From assembly GCA_002337545.1 (NCBI GenBank), contig DDGE01000051.1, positions 1 through 14,112 on the forward strand: a stretch of 14,112 nucleotides of DNA, given 5' to 3'. Positions 241 to 4,484 of the stretch are shown here, piece after piece (position 1 is the first letter of the stretch; each line of letters opens with the position of its first letter). Made by a program: the position numbers and the translations under genes. Below the pieces are notes generated by a model. It was given only the letters and a program-made list of their open reading frames with translations, did no database searches and had not been told where the DNA came from. Source of the stretch: Phycisphaerales bacterium UBA1910. GTDB taxonomy: Bacteria; Planctomycetota; Phycisphaerae; Phycisphaerales; UBA1924.

Positions 241-276
241 GGGTGCCCGTAATCGCCGTCTTCGGCGCATTGCGGC
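241..276 (+). repeat. REP-like repeat R1
   Basis: A 36-bp element starting GGGTGCCC and ending GCGGC. Its core is a perfect 5-bp stem, CGCCG / CGGCG, closing the loop TCTT. All five copies in the window have the same length, head and stem, with the loop varying. It sits 15 bp after the aroE stop codon. A 7-bp tandem duplication of GGGTGCC lies at its left edge (234-247). Confidence 0.8.
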
Positions 277-325
277 AAATACCCAACCCCACCGACAAAC
301 ACAAGCCACCCAAACGCCCTCTTCC

Positions 326-361
326 GGGTGCCCGTACTCGCCGTCCCCGGCGCAGTGCGGC
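326..361 (+). repeat. REP-like repeat R2
   Basis: Second 36-bp copy in the same orientation as R1, with stem CGCCG / CGGCG and loop TCCC. It ends 18 bp before the TACACT hexamer proposed as the transposase promoter, so it could affect transcription of the gene. Confidence 0.8.
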
Positions 362-379
362 CAAACTCCATCCATCTGA

Positions 380-385
380 TACACT
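380..385 (+). promoter_or_regulatory. Candidate -10 element for the RAYT gene (leaderless)
   Basis: TACACT lies exactly 6 nt upstream of ATG 392, so transcription would be expected to begin at or next to the A of the start codon. No Shine-Dalgarno sequence precedes the ATG (CCACCC), which fits a leaderless mRNA. No convincing -35 hexamer is visible; the expected position falls at the end of REP R2. Confidence 0.4.
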
Positions 386-391
386 CCACCC

Positions 392-949
392 ATGTCACGC
401 ACGCCGAAGATGAAGCGAATCGAAGCGCCCAACCACATCCGATTCCTCACATTCTCCTGTTACCAACAACTCCCGCTCTTCAACAACGACCGCATCAAAG
501 ACGCGTTTGTCGATCACATACACAACACACGCATCAACACGAACTTCCATCTCATCTCCTGGGTCATCATGCCCGAACATGTGCACCTGCTCATCTGGCC
601 GGACATCGAGAGAGCACCGGTCTCGAAGATCGTCTGGCGACTCAAGCGAGATTTTGCGAAAATGGTTATCGGCAGATGGAATGAACTCGATGCCCCGATC
701 CTGACAAAGCTCCGCACGACGCAAGGCAAGATTCGATTTTGGCAGCACGGCGGTGGATACGACCGCAACATCATTTCCCGGCTTGAGCTGGAAGAAAAAC
801 TTCACTACATACATCAAAACCCGGTCAAACGCGGACTCGCACCGACCCAGACCGACTGGCCATGGTCATCGGCAAGCTGGTACGCAGGATGCAGAGAGCA
901 CACGATCCCGATCGACCCGCCCACAAAGCCAAAGTCACACAATCAGTGA
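392..949 (+). CDS. REP-associated tyrosine transposase (RAYT, Y1/HUH family)
   Basis: This 185-aa protein belongs to the IS200-like Y1 transposase superfamily, in the single-copy 'domesticated' branch that processes REP hairpins. Visible hallmarks: the metal-binding HUH motif as MPEHVHLL (His63, His65); the likely nucleophile Tyr123 in FWQHGGGYDRNI; and the RAYT-type ending YIHQNPVKRGL (139-149) followed by WPWSS (156-160). The known family cleaves and joins single-stranded DNA at hairpins through a 5'-phosphotyrosine intermediate. The length is normal and all key residues are present, so the enzyme is probably active. ATG 392 is chosen because a -10-like hexamer sits 6 nt before it; Met7 (410) is an alternative. 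Two REP-like repeats lie upstream and three downstream, the nearest 4 bp after the stop. This is the expected RAYT context and suggests these repeats are its substrates, though that link is inference. Confidence 0.93.
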   Translation: MSRTPKMKRIEAPNHIRFLTFSCYQQLPLFNNDRIKDAFVDHIHNTRINTNFHLISWVIMPEHVHLLIWPDIERAPVSKIVWRLKRDFAKMVIGRWNELDAPILTKLRTTQGKIRFWQHGGGYDRNIISRLELEEKLHYIHQNPVKRGLAPTQTDWPWSSASWYAGCREHTIPIDPPTKPKSHNQ

Positions 950-953
950 TTTC

Positions 954-989
954 GCCCGACTGCGCCGAAGACGGCGAGTCGGGGCACCC
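954..989 (-). repeat. REP-like repeat R3 (inverted)
   Basis: A 36-bp copy in the opposite orientation, starting 4 bp after the transposase stop. Read on the minus strand it starts GGGTGCCC and has the stem CGCCG / CGGCG with loop TCTT, the same loop as R1. It is the only inverted copy in the window. Lying right behind the gene, it could also stabilise the 3' end of the mRNA or end transcription. Confidence 0.8.
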
Positions 990-1011
990 AAACACCAAAC
1001 TCCCCCCCTCT

Positions 1012-1047
1012 GGGTGCCCGTAATCGCCGTCATCGGCGCATTGCGGC
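1012..1047 (+). repeat. REP-like repeat R4
   Basis: A 36-bp copy with loop TCAT, differing from R1 at a single position. Its head faces that of R3 across 22 bp, so R3 and R4 form a head-to-head inverted pair. Confidence 0.8.
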
Positions 1048-1096
1048 GAATACCCAACCCCACCGACAAACACAAGCCGCCCAAACGCGCTCTTCC

Positions 1097-1132
1097 GGGT
1101 GCCCGAAATCGCCGTCTCCGGCGCAATGTGGC
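1097..1132 (+). repeat. REP-like repeat R5
   Basis: A 36-bp copy with loop TCTC. Five positions differ from R2, its counterpart in the left module, but none fall in the stem CGCCG / CGGCG. From here to 1228 I see no further repeat or gene, only C-rich sequence leading to the next gene. Confidence 0.78.
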
Positions 1133-1228
1133 CTGTCACCAACCCCAAAATCTCACGCGCATCTCACGCTCTGTGCGCAGAATCATGTCACTACCCCACT
1201 TCCCGCTTGTGCCACGCAAACACACGCA

Positions 1229-3482: not shown

Positions 3483-3637
3483 GCCGTGAACCCCGTTCCG
3501 TCGCGTCCCATTCCCGCTGACCCGGAATGCCCCCAAAGATCCTCGAAATCGCGGTTCAAAAGATCATTGCATTGAATAAACAACCGTTTACCATGGTGTG
3601 TAGAGCGTACACCAACTCAAACGACACGAGAACTGAT

Positions 3638-4465
3638 ATGAATCGCATGACTTCCGCCGTTGCATTGCTCGCATTCACGATCACCTCCCACATCTCACTC
3701 GCGCAAGATCAGGTCGAGTATGCATTTGCGTTCCACGCGGAGTGGAGCCAAGCTACCCACCCGACGGCGTTTCCTTCAAACCCCCACTTTTCGCCGATCA
3801 TCGGCGCGACACATACCGACGCGCTGTCTCTCTGGGAGCCCGGCGGGATCGCAACCAACGGGATCGAGGTGATGGCTGAAACGGGATCACCCTCCCCATT
3901 GAGTTCAGAAGTCTCGGGGCACATCAACGCAGGTCTCGCGAACCAGTTCATCAATCTCGGAGGCGTTGCGTTGTCCCCCGACACCCGCACGGGGACCATC
4001 ACTGTGGACGCGGACTTCCCGCTGCTCTCGCTTGTCACCATGATCGCGCCCAGCCCGGACTGGTTCGTCGGAATTCATGGTGTCGATCTGCGCCCCAATG
4101 GGATCTGGGCACGCGAGCTCGTGTTCGATCTCGACCCGTACGACTCGGGGACGGATTCGGGCGTGAACTACACATCCGGGAACGCGAATGTCACGCCGCA
4201 TCTTCCGATCGCAAACCTGAGCGACACTTTCCCGTTCACCGGCTCGGGTCGCATCGGGACCTTTACGATCACCCTCGTCTCAGATGCGAGTTGCTCACAC
4301 GCGGATCTTGCGAAGCCGTTTGATTCATTGGACTTCTTCGATGTGTCCGCCTTCATTAGCGCATACAACGCACAGGACGAATCGGCAGACTTCACGAACG
4401 ACGGCGTATTCGATTTCTTCGATGTCTCCGCGTTCATCAACGCATACAGCGCCGGGTGCCCGTAA
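3638..4465 (+). CDS. Secreted Spondin_N-domain protein with GC-type dockerin-like tail
   Basis: With the start at 3638 the protein has 275 aa and begins with a Sec signal peptide (MNRMTSAVALLAFTITSHISLAQ, cut after Gln23 likely). The open frame continues upstream to 3527, but those 37 codons would bury the signal peptide. Residues 26-200 match the Spondin_N fold: EWSQATHP, FPSNPHFSPIIGATH (45-59), SPDWFVGIHGVDL (139-151) and YDSGTDSGVNY (168-178). The domain is known from animal F-spondin and from bacterial secreted proteins of unclear function. Residues 219-275 hold two LDFFDVSAF/FDFFDVSAF repeats with EF-hand-like Asp-rich segments (DFTNDGVFDFFD), opening with Cys219 and ending in GCP. I read this as the dockerin-like terminal module of Phycisphaerae, probably calcium-binding and used for surface anchoring. 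The same tail occurs on the protein at 12635. Confidence 0.85.
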   Translation: MNRMTSAVALLAFTITSHISLAQDQVEYAFAFHAEWSQATHPTAFPSNPHFSPIIGATHTDALSLWEPGGIATNGIEVMAETGSPSPLSSEVSGHINAGLANQFINLGGVALSPDTRTGTITVDADFPLLSLVTMIAPSPDWFVGIHGVDLRPNGIWARELVFDLDPYDSGTDSGVNYTSGNANVTPHLPIANLSDTFPFTGSGRIGTFTITLVSDASCSHADLAKPFDSLDFFDVSAFISAYNAQDESADFTNDGVFDFFDVSAFINAYSAGCP

Positions 4466-4466
4466 C

Positions 4467-4484
4467 CACTCTCTGATCAGAGTG
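4467..4484. terminator. Weak hairpin between convergent genes
   Basis: CACTCT and AGAGTG form a 6-bp stem around CTGATC, just after the dockerin-tail stop and over the prfA stop codon (4477-4479). There is no U-run on either strand, so it is at best a weak bidirectional terminator. Confidence 0.3.

Follow-up and report, generated by a model that had tools for sequence, protein, structure and literature searches.

Described REP and RAYT systems

Among the described systems closest to the locus reported here is the REPtron of E. coli (TnpAREP, structure 4er8; Quentin subclass 2.2), in which an HUH/Y1 protein is accompanied by a bulged REP hairpin with an unpaired guide at its 5' foot, and the repeats form inverted doublets. 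The E. coli guide is GTAG, and TnpAREP is described as tolerating no change in it (PMC8266576). Repeats are reported to be more numerous in E. coli genomes that have the gene (PMC8049555). GT[AG]G is treated as a hallmark of REPs; because a GT[AG]G guide was required by the automatic search in PMC6006769, systems with other guides can be missed.

Several further groups are relevant. Short tagged palindromes have been placed in GTAG and CGTC super-families of REPs (Di Nocera 2013, PMC3733652), and GTAG repeats are known in planctomycetes too, as in R. baltica (PMC3733652). RAYT-like genes with a foot other than GT[AG]G are described as class 3 and subclass 2.6 (Quentin 2018, PMC6006769); class 3 is found mainly in Planctomycetes and has the foot CnGA (PMC6006769). 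TIRYTs, or TIRtrons (subclass 2.1, PMC3733652), also combine a Y1 transposase with flanking repeats and have moderate repeat families. A connection between guide and cut site has been described for the Mb REPtron of Marinomonas, where cross-complementarity directs cutting at CT and CA for GTAG, at CA and CC for GTGG, and at GA and GT for GTAC (PMC8266576); among the RAYTs of that study, this rule was shown for one flexible enzyme only.

A RAYT gene among five hairpins

The window, a stretch of 14,112 nucleotides from Phycisphaerales bacterium UBA1910, carries at 392..949 on the forward strand a gene for a RAYT-family HUH/Y1 protein. The 185-residue product has the HUH motif (H63, H65), Tyr139, and the motif FWQHGGGYDRN. 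It scores 96.6 bits against model NF047646 (cut-off 80), Y1_Tnp is the sole domain found in a Pfam scan, and the best match among the structures aligned was 4er8, TnpAREP of E. coli. The HUH motif and the tyrosine are invariant in all 25 aligned rows. The first-pass annotation had described a complete HUH/Y1 transposase gene amid five 36-bp elements with a constant head and stem and differing loops, and each part of this description holds in the window, where all five copies have the head GGGTGCCC and the stem CGCCG/CGGCG.

Copies 1 (241..276, loop TCTT, 60.5 bits) and 2 (326..361, loop TCCC, 60.1 bits) precede the gene on the forward strand. Copy 3 (954..989, loop TCTT, 57 bits) is inverted, with lower stem pairs that are compensated relative to the other copies, and copies 4 (1012..1047, loop TCAT, 60.5 bits) and 5 (1097..1132, loop TCTC, 51.1 bits) are again on the forward strand, so that the RAYT gene is flanked by REPs in inverted orientation. 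All five lie between genes, as judged by eye. All five carry GTGC at the foot (at 243-246 in copy 1), in place of the GT[AG]G of canonical REPs, and a second GGGTGCC at 234-240 adjoins copy 1. Four of the copies fold into a 12-pair hairpin that has a single bulged C (z from -2.3 to -4.3 relative to shuffles); the 5-bp stem originally proposed is present in them as part of this longer structure. The copy at 1097 has a mismatched lower stem, folds poorly (z -1.18, with 23 of 200 shuffles equally good), and is probably decaying. The first REP pair and its spacer (241..373, forward) recur downstream of the gene at 1012..1144 on the same strand, as a 133-bp direct duplication whose members are 89% identical.

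Elsewhere in the window, at 4451-4474, the REP head is matched over 15 bases (GCCGGGTGCCCGTAA); the match supplies the final codons and the stop (AGCP, TAA) of a Spondin_N protein encoded at 3527-4465. This may be a decayed REP, or a chance match with a conserved C-terminus.

The repeat family in the genome

The repeats are not confined to the window. A strict search for the 36-mer (at least 27 fixed bases, up to 3 mismatches) gave 10 copies in the genome, 5 of them in the window, and a head-and-tail pattern with the stem opened gave 26, with 0 matches to the reversed control pattern in both cases. Copies outside the window are 36-39 bp long. A covariance model gave at least 57 genome matches at E 0.01, of which 26 reached 51 bits, with 150 of 5511 first-look candidates scored. 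REPs usually number more than 100 per genome (PMC2817692); the copy number here is modest, in an assembly that is 88% complete and divided into 71 contigs, with several copies at contig ends.

The weaker covariance-model matches, among those examined, belong mainly to a sister REP family, GGGTGCCACTACTCG...AGTAGTG (e.g., L171, C10:20801-20890), which often forms compact inverted doublets about 55 bp apart. No cognate RAYT for this family was found among the RAYT matches of its own genome. GC-rich palindromes of the forms CCTCCCC...GGGGAGG and TCCGCCT...GGCGGA adjoin several REPs of the own genome (L011-L013, L018, L227); these look like separate repeat families and were left out of the REP counts.

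The forms of the apical stem in the genome include CGCCG/CGGCG, CGCGGC/GCCGCG, CGCTGC/GCAGCG, and CGCGTC/GACGCG. Over 20 distinct copies, two of them from the related loci L078 and L079, pairing is maintained in 98.3% of cells and 5 of the 12 pairs change on both sides; the covariation score of 0.221, compared with 0.040 for shuffled data, was reached by 0 of 500 shuffles. The fixed stem with a free loop that had been proposed is thus true of the window and not of the genome, where the stem varies with paired changes. The case for selection on the hairpin, which had been suggested on this basis, is strengthened.

In a hand count from the covariance-model matches, 9 of 14 neighbours within 150 bp were inverted with heads outward, and these are inverted doublets, as in REPINs; 4 of the other 5 had the same direction and 1 was head to head, 3 of these 5 being in the window. 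Two other sites inspected by eye have the REP between genes, and an ORF-cover test for intergenic placement gave a non-significant p of 0.12 (21 copies of three repeat types, in a GC-rich genome with long spurious ORFs). A C directly follows the hairpin in 23 of 26 own copies, and the 5' flank favours TC[TC], with C at -2 in 20 of 26.

A second RAYT, 45% identical to that of the window, lies on C11 of the same genome. Its flanks carry GGGTGCCCTGCTTTGACCCGAAGGGCAAAGCAGG, which has a different stem and the same GGGTGC head as the window REPs; copies of this type number 12 in the genome, against 0 for the control. Each RAYT of this genome is therefore flanked by a stem type of its own, and both types are dispersed.

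The guide across RAYT loci

The foot was compared across 111 RAYT loci, mostly planctomycete, consisting of L020, 30 loci from 150 genomes of the family, and 80 named loci. The 30 are the best loci of 30 genomes out of the 150 searched (85 of which had a RAYT match), the 80 are the best of at least 517 confirmed, and both sets lean to near relatives. Of the 111 genes, 97 are distinct, while 14 loci repeat another locus's gene because the same assemblies were reached via two collections; counts of 7-mers, tetranucleotides, scrambled words, residues with lead-ins, and tree changes use all 111 loci or their groups. Hairpin scans can count a doubled head twice, such as the one at 234 and 241. The loop in this RAYT lineage is mostly WQxGGG[YF]DRN, and the proteins are accordingly divided here into a Y group and an F group.

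When all tetranucleotides immediately 5' of strong hairpins were compared, GTGC was the commonest within 350 bp of the gene in both groups (131 near vs 75 far, ratio 8.1, in the Y group; 53 near vs 29 far, ratio 8.5, in the F group). GTAG before hairpins showed no enrichment (ratios 0.9 and 0.7 in the two groups), GTGG had ratios of 3.4 (Y) and 0.6 (F), and CGTC did not figure among the top 14 tetranucleotides of the Y group or the F group. In the Y group, GGTG and GGGT show enrichment as well, and the guide may start one or two bases sooner; the GTGC register is preferred because it is common to both groups. The core of the guide shared across these loci is thus GTGC, at the position that GT[AG]G takes in the foot of canonical REPs. 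What precedes it differs: GG in 91 of 141 hairpins of the Y group (GGGTGC), and CC or TC in 39 of 63 of the F group.

Independently of any hairpin assumption, GGGTGCC was found near the gene (300-bp flanks) at 67 of 111 loci, and at 18 of 111 in the far flanks, some of which run off short contigs. Followed by a stem, it has a density of 2.05/kb within 350 bp of the gene vs 0.10/kb beyond 700 bp, about 20-fold (97 distinct genes); four scrambled control words had densities of 0.03-0.08/kb near the gene (all 111 loci). A GGGTG[CG]C hairpin lies within 350 bp in 58 of 72 distinct Y-type loci and is lacking, at the threshold used, in 36 of 97 distinct loci (22 of F type, 14 of Y type). A GTGC hairpin, mostly with another lead-in, is present in 19 of these 22 F-type loci.

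The cross-complementarity rule of the Mb REPtron implies that GTGC should direct cutting to GC or GA. A C directly after the hairpin, giving GC, was considered as a cut-site signature (74 of 141 Y and 30 of 63 F hairpins for GTGC, vs 12 of 42 for GTGG) and given little weight, the copies being related and the hairpin mostly ending in G.

Among the 93 distinct loci whose flanks were long enough, inverted repeats of at least 25 bp without a direct repeat of 60 bp were found in 52. Direct duplications of at least 60 bp bracket the gene in 27, that of the window among them, and 12 show neither kind at 25 bp. The direct duplications could have arisen when a circle of gene plus REP inserted next to a REP unit already in place, or by local duplication.

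With regard to the systems described above, the tag is neither GTAG nor CGTC, and the GTGC of the window, which also leads the counts in relatives, differs from the CnGA foot of Quentin class 3. TIRYTs are described as having long TIRs as flanks, some with GGGGWSAS, and a protein with an added C-terminal domain; here the flanks are short self-complementary hairpins with an unpaired tag, and Pfam shows Y1_Tnp as the one domain in the 185 residues. GGGTGCC does occur in two Stenotrophomonas REPs (PMC2817692, PMC3686654); in our reading these have a GTGG head, and their stem opens with GTGCC. In the text passages of the REP/RAYT literature that were searched, no REP guide of the sequence GTGC was found. 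The suggestion that this is an undescribed lineage is retained provisionally.

A candidate reading loop

Residues W94, Q95, E100, H101, and R104 of E. coli TnpAREP have been discussed in connection with the guide, and E100 and H101 are replaced by D and R in other subclasses (PMC6006769). In our own alignment the E. coli sequence WQPRFWEHAIR corresponds to WQxGGGYDRN here, and D124 and R125 are placed opposite E100 and H101 by counting from the catalytic tyrosine, in a region where HMMER puts a gap. GGGTG[CG]C hairpins accompany 67 of the 81 loci whose proteins have GGGY[DE], and 0 of the 23 with GGGFD. This one residue was nevertheless rejected as a demonstrated cause of the lead-in. In a tree built with the residue masked, the 74 rows that carry both labels require two changes of the lead-in and three of the residue, L102 has Y within the F clade yet an F-type lead-in, and the independent pairs on starred branches number two, too few for a test; over all labelled rows, the residue label needs 8 changes. 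It is conceivable, at slightly worse than even odds, that a Planctomycetota RAYT lineage has recoded its guide to GTGC (GG-led in one group, mostly led by CC or TC in another) and reads it through the WQxGGG[YF]DRN loop.

Such a lineage would constitute a natural experiment on the choice of cut site by HUH enzymes, and would offer single-strand cutters that have a new address. A near-constant, non-canonical guide combined with freely changing stems separates the enzyme's reading of the foot from its reading of the hairpin. With GTGC, GTGG, and two lead-ins present in related proteins, the rule connecting guide and cut site becomes testable on natural pairs.

Gene and repeats in relatives

The nearest among the named loci listed are those of the Phycisphaerales MAGs HXMU1422-10 (L078, 91% protein identity) and HKST-UBA15 (L079, 89%). 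In these and the own genome, the RAYT occupies the same site with the same neighbours, and the three orthologous genes are open throughout, with dN/dS of 0.12-0.19. The number of REPs before and after the gene, counted by eye, is 2 and 3 in the own genome, 3 and 3 in L078 (the last decayed), and 2 and 2 in L079. The gene has therefore been inherited in place and kept, while the repeats turn over.

Two further REP sites differ between species. At an orthologous site (L237 vs L227:13681-13719), the own genome has a repeat of the GGGTGCCCGTACTCG type and G161 one of the GGGTGCCACCACTCG type, which may reflect conversion, replacement, or paired change. A candidate empty site in G155 was rejected as such: G155 has no repeat there, but G160 keeps a fragment resembling the 3' half of the repeat, so that gain and loss are indistinguishable at that site.

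In a comparison of 21 genomes of the genus, including the own genome, repeats were counted at E 1e-4 and genomes were grouped by best RAYT score. Repeats were present in 14 of the 21. The eight genomes with a RAYT above 170 bits have 27, 35, 30, 16, 6, 16, 0, and 32 repeats, the six with a RAYT of 60-170 bits have 17, 1, 0, 15, 18, and 9, and the seven with no RAYT match above 60 bits have 0, 5, 0, 0, 0, 0, and 6. The first and last groups differ with p 0.0035 in a one-sided rank test, which ignores kinship and completeness. In relatives in which no RAYT was found, the repeat is thus usually rare, and it is frequent where a close RAYT is present, a pattern like that in E. coli. Exceptions are G158, with a RAYT 51% identical and zero repeat matches; G155, with 15 copies, some at full score, and RAYTs that are only distant; and the two genomes that have 5 and 6 repeats with no RAYT match above 60 bits.

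Interpretation and alternative explanations

The first-pass interpretation of the locus as a RAYT/REP system is supported by the NF047646 score, the flanking hairpins, their dispersal in the genome, and the inverted doublets. The locus is a RAYT/REP system with a GTGC guide: it has the RAYT-family protein, the inverted flanking hairpins, the dispersed repeats with doublets, and the single-copy, vertically kept gene under purifying selection, and it departs from such systems in the foot; a high copy number and a mainly intergenic location are possible further features. The gene, the hairpins with their covariation, dispersal, and doublet order, the differences between species, and the guide as recognised by comparison argue for a REPtron, with a probability of about 0.88: a domesticated, vertically inherited HUH/Y1 RAYT with cognate REP hairpins, in which a lineage guide GTGC replaces GT[AG]G. 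A repeat often seen next to planctomycete genes annotated 'transposase' thereby receives a name.

By analogy with E. coli TnpAREP and its relatives, the gene product would carry out binding, cleavage, and strand transfer, and would be responsible for the spread of the repeats. Most likely, the RAYT protein binds the single-stranded REP, with the unpaired guide at the hairpin foot read by the WQxGGGYDRN loop and the bulged hairpin by the HUH core. Tyr139 would then most likely cut near the foot, the ends would be rejoined, and REP units would be copied or moved at a low rate.

The alternative that survives best, improbable as it is, holds that the repeats and the gene are neighbours by history only and that copying occurred through local slippage, gene conversion, or the second RAYT. 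At the locus, pairs of REPs spaced 85 bp apart have been duplicated and copy numbers differ between species, and both the 15 copies of G155 and the GGGTGCCACTACTCG family, for which the RAYTs found in the genome include no cognate one, are consistent with it. Nevertheless, a history of this kind does not account for the roughly 20-fold higher density of the tag-plus-hairpin near RAYT genes, nor for the two RAYTs flanked by different stems that are both dispersed.

It is very unlikely that the locus is an insertion sequence of the IS200/IS605 type, of which gene and flanking hairpins would move as a unit and leave lone hairpins as left-over ends. The HUH/Y1 fold is common to the IS608 and ISDra2 transposases, and the direct duplications on both sides of the gene, found in the window as in 27 of the 93 loci, would suit such an element. 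However, the protein scores 20.9 bits against the IS200 model, below the cut-off of 55, and a single copy of the gene was found in the genome, the next RAYT being 45% identical, where several whole-element copies would be expected; 26 strong repeat matches stand against this one gene, and the gene has stayed at the same site in three species under the low dN/dS given above.

Equally slim is the chance that the hairpins are transcription terminators or mRNA-end hairpins that crowd the locus and are selected for an RNA function: copy 1 starts 15 bases past the upstream ORF's stop codon, and at two other sites (in the own genome and G161) a REP starts 10-18 bases after an apparent stop codon, but there is no T run after the hairpin (the third base after the 36-mer is A in 20 of 26 own copies), a promoter and terminator scan gave nothing clearly above chance (2 terminators vs 1.3 expected, neither with the REP hairpin stem), no Rfam family reached its gathering score in 1-2500, and the conserved unpaired GGGTGC, the RAYT neighbours in many species with different stems, and the doublets would be left unexplained. 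The hairpins of the REPtron may have a secondary RNA use.

Y1 domains within a tRNA synthetase

Separately from the RAYT loci, a Y1/HUH domain was found in frame inside a class I tRNA synthetase in three genomes of the genus, at L022 (own genome, C68, 180480-183791), L198 (G132), and L212 (G159). From our own reading of its sequence, the synthetase is probably valyl-tRNA synthetase. Pfam identifies tRNA-synt_1 in L022 and L198, with Y1_Tnp within the insert. The inserts of L198 and L212 are alike, while L022 has a clearly different Y1 domain in the same place. Around the insert of the L022 synthetase gene are several short repeats centred on GAGCCGCGACCGTCAGGGAGCGG, in both orientations.
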